From Oscillospiraceae bacterium (lineage in GTDB: Bacteria; Bacillota; Clostridia; UBA1212), in assembly GCA_015069195.1 (NCBI GenBank), contig SVJA01000001.1, positions 140,148-204,147 on the forward strand: 64,000 bases of DNA. The letters are read 5' to 3'. Below the pieces are notes generated by a model. That model was not told the origin of the DNA, ran no database searches, and saw only the letters and a list, made by a program, of their open reading frames with translations. Shown here in pieces: positions 29,779 through 37,760 of this stretch. Position 1 is the first letter of the stretch; every line of letters starts with the position of its first letter. The translations under genes and the position numbers were made by a program.

Positions 29779-31122
29779 TTATTTTTTCTTTTTTATAACC
29801 AAGAAATAAATTGCAAGAGCTGCACCTGCAAGTACGACAACACCGCCAGAAACAATACCTATAATCGCACCCAAACCGAGTCCGCCGTCTTTATCAGCAG
29901 AACCTTTGTCAGATGTGCCGGCAGTAGCTTTGGGAGCTTCTGTAGCTTCAGGAGCGGCAGTAGCATCACCGGGCTCTTCTGCATTGTTGTCATCACCGGG
30001 AACTTCTGCATTAGTATCATCGCCGGGAACTTCTTCGTTGTTATCATCGCCGGGCTCTTCTGTGTTATTATTATCATCCGAAGGAGCCTCTGTAGCATCG
30101 GGAGCTGTTGTACCCTGGGGCTGTTCGTTAGAAGTACCTTTATCCCAAGCATCAGAATCTACAGGAAGAAGCGAGAAAGCAACTGCATAACCTGAGTCCT
30201 CTCCGGTAACATCATTTTCTTCTTCTCCGCCTGAGTTTACTATACATGACTCATATATAGTGAAACATGACTCTGTGTATTCCGACAAAACTTCAGATAC
30301 AGGCATAGCAAGATAATACTTAGCTGATCCGTCTCCGCTATCACCGGGCTCATAATCATCAACAGGAGAAACTCTGAAGATATAGTCGCCGGCAGGAAGC
30401 TTATTAAATTTCATAATTACAAGCTTATTCTCGATAATCTTTGTATCCTTCTGGAACAAAACATTTTCATCTGTATCAAGAATTTCAAAATTCCATCTCT
30501 GGAGACCTGTACCTTTATTGTCAGACCAAGCAGTAAAACTCAATCCCTCAAACTCACCTTTAGCAGTAAAATATGTATCATGGTAAGCTTCCGGAGAAGT
30601 AATATGAATCATCGCTTCTGATTTCTGCAAAGTATTGTCAGAAACAGTAAAACTCTTCCAAGGACTCTTAACAGTAAGATCGGTCTGTGCAACAAGCTCA
30701 TACCAGTGATTTTCTTCAAAACGTTTGAACATACAAATCACATACTCACCGGGAGTTATTGTCTCATAAGTCTTTGTAATAGCCTTATCTGTACTCAAAG
30801 TAACTTCAGTACCATCCGGAACAATGTTTTTTATATCAGATCCGTCTGACTGAGTGCAAGCCTGAGTAAAGAAACGACCGTACTGACCTGCAAGATTATA
30901 GTCGTTATTATTTTCCTTAAGCTGCTCTTTGTTAAAAATAGCAATCCATGAATTTTTCTGCGGAACACCGGCTACTTTTACCTTAAATGAATATGTACCA
31001 TCTTCGGTATTAATGGTTCCGGGACCTGTAATGCTCGGTGTAGCAGCAGAAGCAGGAACAGCCATCATACACATACTAGCAATAATCGCTACAGCAATTA
31101 TCAATGAAATAAACTTTTTCAT
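29779..31122 (-). CDS. secreted surface protein with acidic repeat and C-terminal membrane anchor
   Basis: A 447-residue protein. Signal peptide (about 1-27, ending AVPASAA), two beta-rich regions (about 28-165 and 165-300) without a family I recognise, an acidic Pro-rich repeat of the 9-residue unit E(E/V)PGDD(N/T)NA (about residues 350-385), and a C-terminal GLGLGAIIGIVSGGVVVLAG helix followed by KKKK. The anchor is nearly identical to those of the three flanking glycosidases, so the four proteins are likely displayed by the same route. Probably a binding or scaffold component. Ribosome site CAGGAGG. Confidence 0.8.
   Translation of the reverse strand: MKKFISLIIAVAIIASMCMMAVPASAATPSITGPGTINTEDGTYSFKVKVAGVPQKNSWIAIFNKEQLKENNNDYNLAGQYGRFFTQACTQSDGSDIKNIVPDGTEVTLSTDKAITKTYETITPGEYVICMFKRFEENHWYELVAQTDLTVKSPWKSFTVSDNTLQKSEAMIHITSPEAYHDTYFTAKGEFEGLSFTAWSDNKGTGLQRWNFEILDTDENVLFQKDTKIIENKLVIMKFNKLPAGDYIFRVSPVDDYEPGDSGDGSAKYYLAMPVSEVLSEYTESCFTIYESCIVNSGGEEENDVTGEDSGYAVAFSLLPVDSDAWDKGTSNEQPQGTTAPDATEAPSDDNNNTEEPGDDNNEEVPGDDTNAEVPGDDNNAEEPGDATAAPEATEAPKATAGTSDKGSADKDGGLGLGAIIGIVSGGVVVLAGAALAIYFLVIKKKK
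29964..30074 (-). repeat. in-frame tandem repeat, four units of 27-30 bp
   Basis: Three 27-bp units (29964-29990, 29991-30017, 30018-30044) and one 30-bp unit (30045-30074), each starting CATC(A/G)CCGGG on the plus strand, encode the acidic spacer repeat of the surface protein. Copy number is likely variable between strains. Confidence 0.85.
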
Positions 31123-31268: not shown

Positions 31269-33473
31269 TCATTTTTTTGACAATTGTTTTTTCTTTATCA
31301 GTATCATAACTACGGTCATGATAGCTATCAGAACGACGACCACACCTGCCACAATTCCGATGAAAGCACCTATTGTGAGGCCTTTATCGCTGTCTTTACC
31401 AGCTGTTTTATTATCTGTGCCGTTGCCGGAAACAGCACTTGTCTCTGTCGGAGCTTCCGATACATTGTCAGGATTATCAACAGGTACCGTTTCCGTAACA
31501 TCAGGAACTATTGTAGCTGTACCAGGTGTCGTTGCGGGAGCTTCCGTAACGGTATTACCGGCAGATGGGGTTACATTCGCAGTAGCCGAAGGTGCTACAG
31601 TAGAAACGGTGGGAGCCGTCGAACCGATGGCAATGCTCTTGATAAACATCACATCACCGGGTTTACCGGTTGTAAAATAATCAAGTCGTATTTTATTAAG
31701 ATTTCCTGTCCAAGTCTTATATTTGCTCATATCGATCGTAACTTTGTGGTATTCTCCGTCACGAACCATTTTATCGGAAGTTACTTTAACTGCTTTGTCT
31801 GCAGTTAAAACAGAACCGCACATACCGTAAATCATAGATCTTGGAGTTTCAGCCTGATTAGTTTTCGGCAACATATACTCTATTGTTATAAACTTATTCT
31901 TTGTTACCGTAACTTTCGACGATGCTTTTGTATAATCCAAAGTGATATACGGATCATAACCGCTCGGCACAGTAAGCTTTAAAGCATTGTTCTCATAGGT
32001 AGCTACTGTGTCACTCGGCTCTCCGACATATATGTGGTTTGCGGGATTTGAAAAATCCAATGTAGTGATATTATCCGACTTTTTAGGCGTCGCAGGAATT
32101 TTACCCTGAGCCAAGCGAGAAGGTCCTGTCGAAAGAATAAGCATATCGGGAACCTGTCTTTCTCCTGTGCTGTCAGCATAATGGTTTACCATCGGGTAGT
32201 TTCCGCCGCTCGGAAGAACCATACTGGAAGATCCGCCGCCGTCAAGGAAAAACGAATCCTTCAAATTAAGTTCTCGCGCAAGGTCAGCATATGTAGCCTG
32301 ATTAAGACCTTTTCGCGATCCGTCTTTCGTAGCACCGCTTGTAAGCATAACAACATTGCCTGAATTTGTTATACCTATAATTGTAGCAGGATAATTGCTC
32401 TCAATACCCGGTGTAAAAGCTTTGCCATCTGTTACAAAAGGTATGTGACCGCAAACCGCATCAGTTACTTTCTGCCACTGGGAAGTATATTTTCCGTACT
32501 GGTCAAATATCGAAACTTTAATGTTTACGGTATCACCCTTTTTATAACCCGAAACGGAATTATACTGTGAACCTCTTCCGGTAAGAATTATGTAGTTTGA
32601 ATTTGCAGTCATCGTAGGGTTCGAAGCACCTGGTGCATGTATACTCTCTACCGTACCTGTGATATCTGTACCGTGCTTTATAACATAGTCATTTGTCGAA
32701 GTAATTTTTATTTTAACCTCAAAAGCATCGTCATTTGAATAGTTGTTTGCAGGACCCTTGTCAGTATACATTACAAGGCTGTTATATGCAGGAAGTCTGT
32801 TTATACCGTCTGCATAAGCAGTAGTGTTTTTACTGGTGTTTTTAATAGTAATCTGTGCATTAGGATTTGATATAACCGGAACGAAATCACTTGTGATACC
32901 AAAACTTATCTGATCTTCGTAAGGAAGGTTTGCAGAACTTGATTTGAAAGACTCCTGAGGCATTCTGTCGGATGCATAAATCTCACCGTTTGACATAGTA
33001 AAACCTACCGGTGTAGCAAGTCCGCCTGTACCGGAAAGCATTTTTTTACCGTTTGAATATTCTACGGCAGTATTTGTATAAAGCCACCAACCGTCTGCAT
33101 TTATAGCGGCAATCGGTTTGAGCGATGAGTTTGCACTATCGAAAGCCTTAACAATCGCCGTACCTTTCTTATAAGCATGGCTGCAAGTAGCACCGCCGTA
33201 AACGGTATCAAGGTACAAATTATTCGCCGACATATCAGCCTCAACAACATTGAACTCTATACCTGAACTTCCGCCGTACTTTGTACCGGAATTAGCAGTC
33301 AACTGAGTATAACGAACACCGCTTGACAATTCTTTTGTCGCATTTTGAGTAGTCGCACTTAATTTGTGAGCAGACGGAGTAGTCGCAGCACTTACTACAA
33401 TCATTCCGGCAAACAACGACGCAACAATTGAAATTGTTAACAGCAAAGTAATCAGACGTTTAAGTCGTTTCAT
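31269..33473 (-). CDS. secreted, membrane-anchored phosphodiester glycosidase (NAGPA/DUF2233 domain), paralogue 2
   Basis: A 734-residue protein with the same architecture as its neighbours: signal peptide (about 1-32), NAGPA catalytic domain with AINADGWWLY and LDGGGSSSM, beta-sandwich module (about 475-630) with the FITIEYMLPKTN block, a Thr/Val/Pro linker and the anchor GLTIGAFIGIVAGVVVV followed by KKKQLSKK. Paralogue 2 differs from the other two in an ADGWWLY instead of ADLWWMY segment and in an SSM rather than TQM or SQM ending of the signature. Ribosome site GGAGG. Substrate not known. Confidence 0.88.
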   Translation of the reverse strand: MKRLKRLITLLLTISIVASLFAGMIVVSAATTPSAHKLSATTQNATKELSSGVRYTQLTANSGTKYGGSSGIEFNVVEADMSANNLYLDTVYGGATCSHAYKKGTAIVKAFDSANSSLKPIAAINADGWWLYTNTAVEYSNGKKMLSGTGGLATPVGFTMSNGEIYASDRMPQESFKSSSANLPYEDQISFGITSDFVPVISNPNAQITIKNTSKNTTAYADGINRLPAYNSLVMYTDKGPANNYSNDDAFEVKIKITSTNDYVIKHGTDITGTVESIHAPGASNPTMTANSNYIILTGRGSQYNSVSGYKKGDTVNIKVSIFDQYGKYTSQWQKVTDAVCGHIPFVTDGKAFTPGIESNYPATIIGITNSGNVVMLTSGATKDGSRKGLNQATYADLARELNLKDSFFLDGGGSSSMVLPSGGNYPMVNHYADSTGERQVPDMLILSTGPSRLAQGKIPATPKKSDNITTLDFSNPANHIYVGEPSDTVATYENNALKLTVPSGYDPYITLDYTKASSKVTVTKNKFITIEYMLPKTNQAETPRSMIYGMCGSVLTADKAVKVTSDKMVRDGEYHKVTIDMSKYKTWTGNLNKIRLDYFTTGKPGDVMFIKSIAIGSTAPTVSTVAPSATANVTPSAGNTVTEAPATTPGTATIVPDVTETVPVDNPDNVSEAPTETSAVSGNGTDNKTAGKDSDKGLTIGAFIGIVAGVVVVLIAIMTVVMILIKKKQLSKK

Positions 33474-33618: not shown

Positions 33619-35772
33619 TTATTTCTTTTTCTTTGAAATCAAAATTACCGTAACAACAATCGCCGCTGCGAGAACAACTCCGCCGGCAATGATACCGATA
33701 ATCGCGCCCATCGGCAATCCGCTTTCTTCTCCATCATCAACAGGATCCTCTGCGGGAACATCCTCAACAGGTGCCTCTGTAACAGGAGCCTCTGTAACAA
33801 CAATTCCCTCAGTCACGACAGGTGCCGTAGTAACAGGGGCTTGTGTAGCCGGTGGCTTTGTCGCAGGGGCTGTAGTAGCAGAAGGTTTTGCTGTAGGAAC
33901 AGGTGTCGCATTCGGATTTTTATCAAGGAACTTTATCGACTTGATATAAATCGTGTCGCCGGATGAAGCTGAAGCAAATATATCAAATCTGAGTTTTGAA
34001 ACATTACTCTTCCACGTAGCTTTCGAAGTATAGTCAATTACCATAGTGTGATACTTTCCGTCACGAGTATAAGTAGAAGTATTTCCCATGGTTTTTCCAT
34101 TTAAGAATATCTGACCTTTGGTTGCCTTTGAGCTGTTTGTAGTCGGAAGCATATATTCGATAGCCAAATATTTTTTCGATGTAGCACTGACTTTCGGAGA
34201 AGATGCACTGTAATCTATCTCAATATACGGATCCTTTGTCGAAAGTGTAGTAACTTTCAAAGCCTTCTGTGTTTCGTCATATCTGAACTTAACATCATTA
34301 CCCTTACGTTCTACCGGAGTCTGATCCGAGAGATACCAGTTATTACCCTCTTTTGAAAAATCAAGAGTCGTCATATCTTTATCTCTGCTTGCAACTGCCG
34401 GAATAGTGCCCTGAGCCGCACGATTCGGACCTGTGGAGAGCACGAGCAAGTTGAGCAATGATCTGTTAGGTTCAGTAGGGTTATTTACATGAACATAAGA
34501 AGTTCCTTCTTTCAAGTACATCTGTGTAGAACCGCCACCGTCAAGAACAAATCCGTCTTTGAGGTCGAGATCTTTACAAAGCTGGACTATACCACCGGAG
34601 GCTATACCCTGACGTGCAGTACCGGTCTGAGCCTGACCGTATGTCATCATAACTACATTACCTGACTTTGTAATACCTATAAGTGTAGCAGGGTAGCTTG
34701 TACTTATAGCAACGTTATTTGTAGAATATGTACCGTCCGTAGCAAAACGCAAGTGTCCGGAAATAGCATCAGTAACTTTCTGCCACTCTTTTGTATACTT
34801 ACCGTCTCTGTCAAATACATTTACGCTGATCTCAATCTTGTCACCGGTTTTGTAACCTGAAAGGTCATTGTATCTTGTGCCTCTGGCTGTAAGAATAATA
34901 TAGTTTGAATCAGCTGTCATAGTAGGACGAGTTTTTCCTGCAAGTGAAACAGACTCAACAGTACCGGTAATCTTTGCACCGTGCTTTACGGTGTAAGCAG
35001 AACACTTAATTTTCACCTCAACAGCATCAGTGTTACAATAAGACTGTTTAGGACCTTTGTCAGTATACATAACGATAGCGTTATTTACCGGCAATCTGTT
35101 TACACCATCTGCGGGTGTTGTCTTGTTCTGTGTAGTATTTTTTACAGTAAGCTCGACATCGGGATTTGAAATAACAGGAACACTGTCGGATGTGATACCA
35201 AAGCTTACATAGTTTTCATAGTTAAGAGGCTGCTTACCGTCTCTTGCGATAAAGCTTTCTCCCGGAAGTCTGTCGGAAGTATATATCTCACCGTTTGACA
35301 TACTGAAACCAAGCGACATAGCGTGACCGCTTGAACCAGCTGCGAGAAGTGATCCGTTACCAGCCAGATTTTCTTTCGCAGAATCTGTATACATCCACCA
35401 AAGGTCTGCATTTATCGCAGCAATCGGTGTCAAAGATGAGTTTGCAGATTTAAAGCTGCTGAGAATAGACGCACCGCCCTTATAAGCATGAGCTGCAGTT
35501 TTTCCTCCGTAAACATTATCAATATACAAATTTTTGGAAGACATATCTACTTCCACTACATCAAACTGAAGATTTGCAGAAGCTCCGTACGCCTTACCCT
35601 TATATGATGCGTATGTAACACCACTTGCCAAAGACTTTGAAGATAATTTTGTAGTACCTGTCAACTTATTTACAGCAGGATCTGCAGCACTTACGGACAA
35701 AGAACAAGTCAGCATCGACACAACAGTAGCCACTGTCAAAATTGCAGAAATTACTTTACTGAATTTTTTCAT
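33619..35772 (-). CDS. secreted, membrane-anchored phosphodiester glycosidase (NAGPA/DUF2233 domain), paralogue 3
   Basis: A 717-residue protein: signal peptide (about 1-30, ending SVSAADP), NAGPA domain with AINADLWWMY and LDGGGSTQM, beta-sandwich module with KYLAIEYMLPTTN, a linker rich in TKPPATQAPVTTAP-type repeats, and the anchor GLPMGAIIGIIAGGVVL followed by KKKK. The ATG used follows AAAGGTG; an upstream in-frame GTG lies inside that ribosome site and was not used. Likely acts at the outer face of the membrane on a phosphodiester-linked glycan, possibly wall teichoic-type polymer or host/dietary glycan (inference). Confidence 0.88.
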   Translation of the reverse strand: MKKFSKVISAILTVATVVSMLTCSLSVSAADPAVNKLTGTTKLSSKSLASGVTYASYKGKAYGASANLQFDVVEVDMSSKNLYIDNVYGGKTAAHAYKGGASILSSFKSANSSLTPIAAINADLWWMYTDSAKENLAGNGSLLAAGSSGHAMSLGFSMSNGEIYTSDRLPGESFIARDGKQPLNYENYVSFGITSDSVPVISNPDVELTVKNTTQNKTTPADGVNRLPVNNAIVMYTDKGPKQSYCNTDAVEVKIKCSAYTVKHGAKITGTVESVSLAGKTRPTMTADSNYIILTARGTRYNDLSGYKTGDKIEISVNVFDRDGKYTKEWQKVTDAISGHLRFATDGTYSTNNVAISTSYPATLIGITKSGNVVMMTYGQAQTGTARQGIASGGIVQLCKDLDLKDGFVLDGGGSTQMYLKEGTSYVHVNNPTEPNRSLLNLLVLSTGPNRAAQGTIPAVASRDKDMTTLDFSKEGNNWYLSDQTPVERKGNDVKFRYDETQKALKVTTLSTKDPYIEIDYSASSPKVSATSKKYLAIEYMLPTTNSSKATKGQIFLNGKTMGNTSTYTRDGKYHTMVIDYTSKATWKSNVSKLRFDIFASASSGDTIYIKSIKFLDKNPNATPVPTAKPSATTAPATKPPATQAPVTTAPVVTEGIVVTEAPVTEAPVEDVPAEDPVDDGEESGLPMGAIIGIIAGGVVLAAAIVVTVILISKKKK

Positions 35773-35902
35773 AATTCTTTTCACCTTTCAATTTATTCTC
35801 AAAATTATTTAACAAAATTTCACTGTGCTTTATTGTATCACGCTTTACAAAATAATTAAAGTGCATTTTTGTAAATTTTTCTTGAACCGATATAAAAAAC
35901 TT

Positions 35903-35933
35903 AACCGGCGGCGTCTTTGCGACGCCGCCGGTT
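35903..35933 (-). terminator. terminator of the microcompartment shell gene pair
   Basis: A 13-bp perfect GC-rich stem (35903-35915 with 35921-35933), loop TTTGC, followed on the minus strand by AAGTTTTTTATATC. Confidence 0.85.
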
Positions 35934-35963
35934 GTTAAAATCATAAATCGTTATAATCCTACA

Positions 35964-36254
35964 TCATTTTTTAGCAGGTTTCTTAATATTTGCCTCAGCC
36001 CATTTTCTGGTCTCATCCGAAGGATTCGAAATAACTGCTGTAAGGAAAATCTCGCAAGGCGGGTTTTCTTTAACTGCCTCAACAGCAGCCGTAACAGCAG
36101 AAACGCTTCCGCTTACAAAAACAGTAACGTGACCTCCGCATTTTGTATTCCAAGTCTGATACTCTACTTCTGCAGTTTTGAGAAGTTTATCAACGACCAA
36201 AATAGCGTTTGTCGAACCAAGTACCTCTATCAATCCAAGTGCTCCGTAACTCAT
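35964..36254 (-). CDS. bacterial microcompartment shell protein, single BMC domain (BMC-H)
   Basis: A 96-residue protein with one complete BMC fold: ALGLIEV start, an AILVVDKLLKTAEV helix, and a VTVFVSGSVSAVTAAVEA core. Such proteins form hexamers that tile microcompartment facets. The pore loop, KIGSGL in PduA/EutM, reads KCGGHV here, placing a cysteine and a histidine where small neutral residues usually line the pore; that recalls shell proteins that hold a metal or iron-sulfur cluster (inference). Second gene of a two-gene unit; no cargo enzyme is encoded nearby. Confidence 0.92.
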   Translation of the reverse strand: MSYGALGLIEVLGSTNAILVVDKLLKTAEVEYQTWNTKCGGHVTVFVSGSVSAVTAAVEAVKENPPCEIFLTAVISNPSDETRKWAEANIKKPAKK

Positions 36255-36282
36255 ATCCGTATACCTATCCTTTCGCCGTCGA

Positions 36283-36582
36283 TTACTTATTTATAGTCAT
36301 CGTGATAGCAGTTTCTGTATCAGCCGCAGGAGCAGCAATGATAGTATGTGCCACGATTTTAGATATAGGCGCAGCAGCCGCAAGTGCAGCCTCCATAGCA
36401 GCCTTTACATTCGATACACTACCGCGAAGCTTTACACAAGCACCGCTCTTTAATCTATTTCTCTCTATGCCCTGTACCTTTACGTCGGCAGCCTTTGTAG
36501 CAGCGTCCATAGCAACGAAACAAGCGCAAAAACTATCTAACTCATATATTCCGATAGCCTGATTTTCAAATCCTGTAGCCAT
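36283..36582 (-). CDS. bacterial microcompartment shell protein, single BMC domain (divergent BMC-H)
   Basis: A 99-residue BMC-domain protein (QAIGIYELDSF start, VAMDAATKAADVKVQGIE helix-strand, VKLRGSVSNVKAAMEAA core). Its pore region reads RLKSGACV instead of KIGSGLVT, which would place a lysine near the pore, quite unlike its partner. C19 and C21 (FCACF) lie at the start of the first helix. An Ala/Thr-rich C-terminus follows. Ribosome site AGGAGG. It is the first gene of the shell pair, with its own consensus promoter. It could form mixed facets with the downstream protein. Confidence 0.9.
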   Translation of the reverse strand: MATGFENQAIGIYELDSFCACFVAMDAATKAADVKVQGIERNRLKSGACVKLRGSVSNVKAAMEAALAAAAPISKIVAHTIIAAPAADTETAITMTINK

Positions 36583-36614
36583 TAGGGATTCCTCCTGTAA
36601 ATGAATATGTCTGG

Positions 36615-36643
36615 ATTATATCTTTTTGCACGGTAAAATGCAA
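36615..36643 (-). promoter_or_regulatory. sigma-A promoter of the shell gene pair
   Basis: Minus strand TTGCAT (36638-36643), a 17-bp spacer and TATAAT (36615-36620), about 33 nt before the first shell-protein start codon. Confidence 0.8.
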
Positions 36644-36662: not shown

Positions 36663-37760
36663 TTATATAAACGAAATCAACCGACGGAGTACTGCGATCA
36701 ACTTTTTACGGGTTTCTTTGTCCATCTCTTTCATCGAATGTGCCATCGACGCCGCACTTTTCATTCGTGACGTGTTTATGTCGGTCAGAGTTTTTGCATT
36801 ACTCGAGGCAATGGCATCAAATACAATATCTACAAATTCACGGCGTTCTTCTTTTGTGAGTGTAGCAAGCCACTGCTTCAGTACCAAGTCGGATTTTTTG
36901 CTGAACTCCGATATACTGTCGGCAGGCACAAAACCTACGCCTTTTATTTCCCATGAAAAAGGATTGTGTTGATAAAACTTCTTCTCTGTGCTTTTTACAA
37001 CTCTGTAGTAGTCGCCCTCTTCCAGCATCAAACCCACAACCGAAGAATCCGGAATTATTTTCACCAGTTTGTCTGAAATACTTTTACACTCCGAGCTTTC
37101 GTAAAAATCATGCGGGAAACCCGGGCCGTCATTGTTGTACGCATTTATTATCCGTCCCTTTAAATGAGCAGGACTTTTTACCGCTGACCATACCGCAAGA
37201 TTTCCGCCTTTTGAATGTCCGCCGAGTCTGATAGACAATTCAGTTTTTCCGGCAATTTTATCGAGATACTCGAGCGCCTTTATCTGAGAAGGCACCGGAG
37301 TTTCAAAAGTCATATAAAAGTCTTCTTTCCAGCCGACAAGGTTATCGTCAGTCCCGCGATAAGAAATATATGCCGTCTTGTCCGGTAAAATAAACGATGT
37401 CGCCGAAAACTGAATATTTGTACTTTCGTCAACAATATTTTCATAACAATTTACATACATTTCGCCGTAGCGGATTGTCTGCGATGCCAAAATGGCTGCT
37501 TTTACAATTTCGTCAGTAACGATCACACCGAGATACATTCTGTCCGGATAAAATTGTTCGATTCTTTCCATCACATCAGAAAACTTAACCGCACCATCTG
37601 AAATACTATCGCACTCATCAGCATTCGGAATTATCTCCGAATAGTCAATATATGAAAGAATTGAGAGCAAAAGGCTATCAATATCATTGAACGGAGAAAT
37701 ATCAAATGACAAATCGCCGCGCCATTCTATATAGTCAAGTAAGTTATTTGTTTTTTTCAC
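36663..37760 (-). CDS. DUF2974 (Mbeg1-like) alpha/beta-hydrolase
   Basis: A 365-residue protein of the DUF2974 family. It has the lipase-type nucleophile elbow GGHSKGGNLA with Ser183, a YISYRGTDD oxyanion-like strand and a DFY segment. These proteins are common in clostridia and are presumed cytoplasmic esterases or lipases; the substrate is unknown. No signal peptide. The C-terminal 60 residues are basic and helical. It is upstream of, but separated by a promoter from, the shell-protein pair, so a functional link is not implied by transcription. Confidence 0.88.
   Translation of the reverse strand: MKKTNNLLDYIEWRGDLSFDISPFNDIDSLLLSILSYIDYSEIIPNADECDSISDGAVKFSDVMERIEQFYPDRMYLGVIVTDEIVKAAILASQTIRYGEMYVNCYENIVDESTNIQFSATSFILPDKTAYISYRGTDDNLVGWKEDFYMTFETPVPSQIKALEYLDKIAGKTELSIRLGGHSKGGNLAVWSAVKSPAHLKGRIINAYNNDGPGFPHDFYESSECKSISDKLVKIIPDSSVVGLMLEEGDYYRVVKSTEKKFYQHNPFSWEIKGVGFVPADSISEFSKKSDLVLKQWLATLTKEERREFVDIVFDAIASSNAKTLTDINTSRMKSAASMAHSMKEMDKETRKKLIAVLRRLISFI

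Follow-up and report, generated by a model that had tools for sequence, protein, structure and literature searches.

Satellite loci of microcompartments (BMCs) have been defined as contiguous shell genes that make up an insufficient shell set, with either PF00936 or PF03319 but not both, in a genome that holds another BMC locus; loci with BMC enzymes nearby are counted as only satellite-like (Axen 2014, PMC4207490). The CcmK3/CcmK4 satellite of beta-carboxysomes is almost always a two-gene unit and has been proposed to be a permeability tuner (PMC5853843), and its two proteins form heterohexamers according to work cited in PMC12058022. For shell proteins with Fe-S clusters, GrpU has been described as the Fe-S hexamer of GRM1/GRM3b loci, and in 57 GRM5 loci PduS and PduT were present in all, GrpU in 0/57 (PMC6325248). 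As GrpU is found in none of these GRM5 loci, a single-domain protein (BMC-H) with a pore cysteine that is tied to GRM5 is not covered in that review.

In this work, we have analysed a pair of BMC shell genes, satA and satB, in a stretch of 64,000 nucleotides (the window). Overall, we give a probability of about 85% to the reading that the pair is a satellite locus of the GRM5 compartment encoded elsewhere in the same genome, and that satA and satB are diverged duplicates of the GRM5 shell proteins H1 and H3 which would add two hexamer types to the shell and retune its pores.

The satA-satB unit in the window

The two genes are contiguous on the same strand, with a gap of 28 bp between them (Table 1). 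An earlier note on this DNA had described two different single-domain BMC shell proteins, and this description holds: both reading frames are present, and each protein has one PF00936 domain (satA, E 1.5e-17, 63.8 bits; satB, E 1.2e-17, 64.1 bits), above the curated cut-off of 24.5 bits. The AlphaFold (AF2) models of both proteins show the BMC alpha/beta fold and match solved BMC-H chains, which are the best Foldseek matches (E 3.5e-8 for satA and 1.3e-5 for satB).

Table 1 Features of the satA-satB unit and its surroundings, with positions counted from the first letter of the window
Feature	Position	Strand	Remarks
satA, BMC-H shell protein, 99 aa	36283..36582	(-)	GRM5 H1-derived satellite class
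satB, BMC-H shell protein, 96 aa	35964..36254	(-)	GRM5 H3-derived satellite class; pore motif KCGGH (C39, H42)
Probable sigma-70-type promoter	36615..36643	(-)	-10 TATAAT (36620-36615) perfect, spacer 17 bp, -35 TTGCAT (36643-36638) weak; read from sequence
Imperfect inverted repeat TTGCATTTTACCGTGCAA	36626..36643	(.)	Overlaps the -35; pattern scan
satA ribosome-binding site AGGAGG	36591..36596	(-)	Read from sequence
Intrinsic terminator	35903..35933	(-)	13-bp stem with 10 G-C pairs, 5-nt loop, U-run; strong
Mbeg1-like alpha/beta hydrolase	36663-37760	(-), as satA	Directly upstream of satA
Two tandem paralogous secreted NAGPA phosphodiester-glycosidase-domain proteins, C-terminal membrane anchor	31269-33473, 33619-35784		Downstream of the pair
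Third anchored protein	29779-31122		After the two NAGPA-domain proteins

The terminator claimed in the same note is also found, with the stem and U-run listed in Table 1, while its "consensus promoter" was overstated. That is, the perfect -10 and the spacer stand, but the -35 agrees with TTGACA at only 3/6 positions. Since our promoter consensus scan demands at least 4/6 at the -35, the satA promoter is missing from its output. The inverted repeat TTGCATTTTACCGTGCAA is a possible operator; it is not conserved upstream of satA in the other carriers inspected, and a pattern scan found no TTGCA-N8-TGCAA repeat of this kind upstream of the main GRM5 operons in the window's genome. The GC content of the pair (43.5%) is not unusual against that of the window (40.9% +/- 3.4%), giving no sign of recent transfer through a foreign base composition, and viral contigs held no relative that would suggest phage or viral carriage.

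For the surroundings, the hydrolase has only distant relatives (27-39%) in same-family genomes and was not found in the same-genus genome (G001, 69% complete). By tblastn, the aldehyde dehydrogenase (AldDH), glycyl radical enzyme, PduL, alcohol dehydrogenases, aldolase and vertex protein that the genome encodes have no relatives in the 64-kb window, in agreement with the earlier statement that it contains no cargo-enzyme or vertex gene.

A complete GRM5 locus elsewhere in the genome

A genome-wide search for BMC and vertex genes, which had been named as a check on a novel minimal assembly, has returned further BMC genes and a complete GRM5 locus with its vertex gene. In the 2.0-Mb assembly (96% complete), the PF00936 search gives nine domains. 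Two of these are satA and satB, six lie on C14, and the ninth is close to the end of contig C21. The PF03319 vertex gene exists in a single copy, on C14 and not on the window's contig. The locus is split inside an AldDH gene: 126 bp at the end of C21 recur at the start of C14, and this overlap joins the two halves. Its first part encodes a glycyl radical enzyme, an activase, a PduU-type BMC protein, EutP, a class II aldolase, a DUF336-like protein and the AldDH; the remainder encodes a lactaldehyde-reductase-type alcohol dehydrogenase (ADH), H1, H2, H3, H4, PduL, the vertex protein, an RnfC/PduS-like protein, a PduT-like BMC-T, DeoR and an Fe-ADH. The shell set thus counts five single-domain BMC genes, one BMC-T and the vertex protein. 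The activase is TIGR02494, and the glycyl radical enzyme scores 1265 bits against the Roseburia inulinivorans diol dehydratase 5i2a. This gene set is that of GRM5 in Axen 2014 (PMC4207490) and Ferlez 2019 (PMC6325248), and the C21/C14 locus is GRM5, i.e., the fucose/rhamnose compartment with a glycyl radical 1,2-propanediol dehydratase.

Placed against this locus, the pair has two PF00936 genes with PF03319 on another contig, its shell genes are contiguous, and no BMC-associated enzyme gene lies immediately beside it, the neighbours being the Mbeg1-like hydrolase and the NAGPA-domain proteins. Because these are the features of the published definition, and a complete GRM5 locus lies on C21/C14, the pair is a BMC satellite locus in the sense of Axen 2014. 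The earlier note itself had taken a conventional locus elsewhere that lacks these two shell types as a sign of mere satellites, and such a locus is what the genome contains: the main-locus shell proteins nearest to the pair show only 37-45% identity (H1 37%, H3 45%).

Both promoters of the main locus (L010, upstream of 4870 and of 9351) share an exact 11-bp element, CAACAAAAAAC, which is a candidate operator for the DeoR regulator of the locus. The element is absent upstream of satA, so that co-expression of the pair with the main locus is not evident, and CAACAAAAAAC is ruled out as a regulatory element common to both.

Distribution of the pair and association with GRM5

Among 84,980 species genomes scanned, five orthologous satA-satB pairs were found, in Lachnospiraceae-type MAGs, with identities to the window proteins of 68-76% for satA and 55-66% for satB. 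In a sample of 397 genomes from the family of genome G097 (Lachnospiraceae), a profile search detects satA in 20 (~5%), and satB comes after it in 19/19 of those whose contig continues. Altogether, orthologous pairs are found in 24 other genomes, which makes 25 carriers with the window's own, and reading frames are intact in the 25 genomes. The order satA-satB on one strand is kept in 23/23 readable loci as well as in the window, with 3-59 bp between the genes in the 23. Since the orthologous pairs recur in 24 other genomes with constant order, the pairing is more than chance.

The pair is also strongly associated with the main compartment. A BMC vertex gene is present in all 20 satA carriers of the sample versus 117/397 overall (hypergeometric P ~7e-12), and the GRM5 enzyme in 17/20 carriers versus 58 of the 377 remaining genomes (Fisher 7e-11); both values ignore kinship, as genomes were taken as species samples and not as phylogenetically independent events. 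The three carriers without an enzyme match (G305, G326 and G340) do have the GRM5 aldolase, reductase, H1-H4 and BMC-T. Over the whole set, the vertex gene is found in 25/25 pair-carrying genomes, and the main loci that were read are GRM5 in all 13 other carriers, or 14/14 with that of the window's genome. This co-occurrence, together with the GRM5 locus in the same genome, supports the earlier suggestion that the pair may supplement a distant BMC. At the same time, satA-satB is dispensable, because 58 genomes with the GRM5 enzyme have no satA.

In the window's own class, satA occurs in 1/391 sampled genomes, namely the window's genome alone. Neither gene was seen in the same-genus genome (69% complete) or the same-family genomes searched, although the same-genus genome and most of the same-family genomes have main-locus BMC genes; the presence of the pair here is therefore sporadic. 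Such a patchy distribution is compatible with acquisition by transfer or with repeated loss.

Several Lachnospiraceae appear to have GRM5 scattered across several loci. Genome G097, which carries locus L043, has the glycyl radical enzyme and the main shell locus on different contigs and another BMC cluster, in which three vertex-protein genes follow one another (G097:C24:76565-77749); further BMC genes lie at other sites in G097, G100 and G101. In the carrier G137, the vertex gene match (G137:C92:18611-18856) contains one in-frame TAA.

All-against-all clustering of the neighbours at the 25 loci found no enzyme common to different lineages, by which a conserved enzyme partner of the pair is ruled out, and no remnants of a second main locus were seen around the pair in the same comparison. 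In two loci, a paralogue of the GRM5 lactaldehyde reductase with an encapsulation-type N terminus directly precedes the pair (L046:4877-5971, L047:4812-5972). Its zinc-ligand motifs are altered (CGICGTD to CIVSETD or CIVSESD, GHE to GEE), and judging from these residues it may be a catalytically dead encapsulated protein. The cluster around these two pairs encodes an L-rhamnonate dehydratase (NF011968, 662 bits against a cut-off of 393), a GntP permease, an IclR regulator and a DHDPS-family aldolase, and the fragmentary L045 has the permease and flanking genes in common with them. In two other carriers, a PduB-type BMC-T gene adjoins the pair on the opposite strand (L088:2039-2767, L090:6145-6858), so the satellite is larger in some carriers.

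Ancestry and pore residues

The satA proteins form one clade (99/99) in the tree of 117 shell proteins and group with GRM5 H1; the satB proteins form one clade (100/100) beside GRM5 H3. The single origin of each satellite group is present in every bootstrap tree; the deep forks are uncertain, because the alignment has few columns.

The residue changes point to the pore. For satA, the pore-loop region ER[NT]R..ACVK and the C-terminal tail are conserved across the class; compared with H1, satA has a shorter pore loop, and its diagnostic residues are R43, L44, G47 and A48. For satB, the positions diagnostic against H3 are T37, C39, H42, C67 and S76, three of which are in the pore-lining loop. The satB pore motif [KR]CGGH is present in 23 of the 24 orthologues, while H3 has KLGG[RW] or KMGGR; the remaining one, in G340, reads RNGGH, with asparagine for the pore cysteine. 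C39 falls, without gaps, in the alignment column of the PduT-type cysteine (CPGK), which is the cluster ligand in PduT (PMC6325248). In the AlphaFold model of satB, a monomer model of moderate confidence here (pLDDT 73), C39 is in the loop 37-41 between two strands. From the alignment and this model, C39 and H42 are assigned to the predicted central pore.

Proposed role and alternative explanations

Based on the above analyses of gene content, genome context, co-occurrence, ancestry and pore-loop residues, we can propose how the pair would serve the GRM5 compartment. The hexamer types H1 and H3 would have been duplicated and have diverged into satA and satB, which would have moved from the main operon to their own promoter and be expressed on their own schedule. 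When expressed, their hexamers would enter the facets of the GRM5 shell as two additional tile types. Since the divergence is concentrated in the pore-lining loops, altering shell traffic is the most likely role, be it through changed permeability or electron transfer. The strict pairing of the two genes suggests that the proteins may assemble together, as a fixed-ratio set or, by analogy with CcmK3/CcmK4, possibly as heterohexamers. The conserved cysteine and histidine of satB at the predicted pore could bind a metal or an Fe-S cluster. A more specific version, which we regard as tentative and rather doubtful, is that satA and satB make a dedicated hexamer, possibly ABABAB, in which a metal or Fe-S cluster sits in the Cys/His-lined pore, and that this pore gives GRM5 an optional, separately switched conduit for electrons or ions. 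If true, redox pores would have arisen independently once more, in addition to those of PduT and GrpU.

It could also be argued that the pair has no function of its own and is what remains, redundant or decaying, of another GRM5 locus, considering that it is patchy (20/397 genomes), absent from the close relatives of the window's genome, and accompanied in another lineage by a changed enzyme paralogue without zinc ligands (L046/L047). Decay, however, agrees poorly with the findings that the reading frames are unbroken in 25 genomes, that satA from the first five pairs has 68-76% identity to the window protein, that pore loop and C-terminal tail are conserved, and that the operon order is always kept; nor are remnants of a second main locus seen around the pair. 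This explanation is therefore improbable.

The earlier note leaned towards a novel, self-contained unit. When overproduced on their own, BMC-H proteins can make tubes or sheets, and an autonomous shell-only assembly, i.e., a nanotube, sheet or simple compartment unconnected to any catabolic BMC, would suit a pair that has its own promoter and terminator in a 64-kb window without cargo or vertex gene. Yet both satA and satB derive from GRM5 shell types, a complete GRM5 locus lies on C21/C14, no vertex-less carrier exists among the 25, and GRM5 was found in 14/14 main loci read. We thus consider an autonomous assembly very improbable, and among the three options that had been offered, own nanotube or sheet, undescribed compartment and supplement to a distant BMC, only the last is supported.

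Finally, that the satellite adapts the GRM5 shell to lactaldehyde from L-rhamnonate breakdown is extremely unlikely: the pathway encoded in L046/L047, where the pair directly follows the reductase paralogue within the dehydratase cluster, would give lactaldehyde, and L045 has the same permease and flanking genes, but this is one related group only (3/25), the paralogue lacks the zinc-ligand motifs, such genes are absent around the pair in the window and in other lineages, and our literature search on rhamnonate together with microcompartments found nothing relevant.

With the pair read as a GRM5 satellite, an apparent orphan becomes a defined accessory module of the gut fucose/rhamnose organelle. 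It also offers a comparative case of shell-pore evolution, in which two hexamers were duplicated, mainly their pore loops changed, and control became separate. Should the cysteine of satB hold a cluster, the GRM5 class, for which no Cys-pore hexamer has been reported, would have one, and satB would bear on electron passage across glycyl-radical BMC shells for enzyme reactivation.

Comparison with known systems

The pair resembles the described BMC satellite loci (Axen 2014, PMC4207490; Sutter 2021, PMC8217296) in that it consists of shell genes only, contiguous and without a vertex gene, with the main locus elsewhere. The main texts of PMC4207490 and PMC8217296 do not mention a GRM5-linked satA-satB class, which may be listed in their supplementary tables. 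It is a known kind of locus, the satellite, in an apparently undescribed form with an unusual Cys/His pore.

At the protein level, GRM5 H1 and H3 are the closest relatives of satA and satB in the tree, at 37% and 45% identity and with changed pore loops. GrpU resembles satB as a single-domain BMC-H protein with a conserved pore cysteine, giving six pore cysteines if satB is a homohexamer. However, satB derives from GRM5 H3, and its [KR]CGGH does not agree with the GrpU motif GXCPQ[N/H], so satB was rejected as a GrpU member. PduT, a BMC-T protein with a [4Fe-4S] cluster in the pore, has its cysteine in the same alignment column without gaps, and the pore cysteine is likewise conserved in satB (23/24 orthologues); unlike satB, which is single-domain with CGGH, PduT is a two-domain trimer with CPGK, and the tandem PF00936 domains of a BMC-T are not found in satB.

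The nearest functional analogue is CcmK3/CcmK4. Both are satellite operons of two adjacent, diverged BMC-H paralogues that lie away from the main locus and are kept paired. They differ in ancestry and in host, which is the catabolic GRM5 compartment rather than the beta-carboxysome, and satA-satB occurs in a minority of GRM5 genomes; heterohexamers are reported for CcmK3/CcmK4 and are a possibility for satA-satB. The pair thus provides a parallel to CcmK3/CcmK4 in a catabolic BMC, found in some GRM5 species but not in others.
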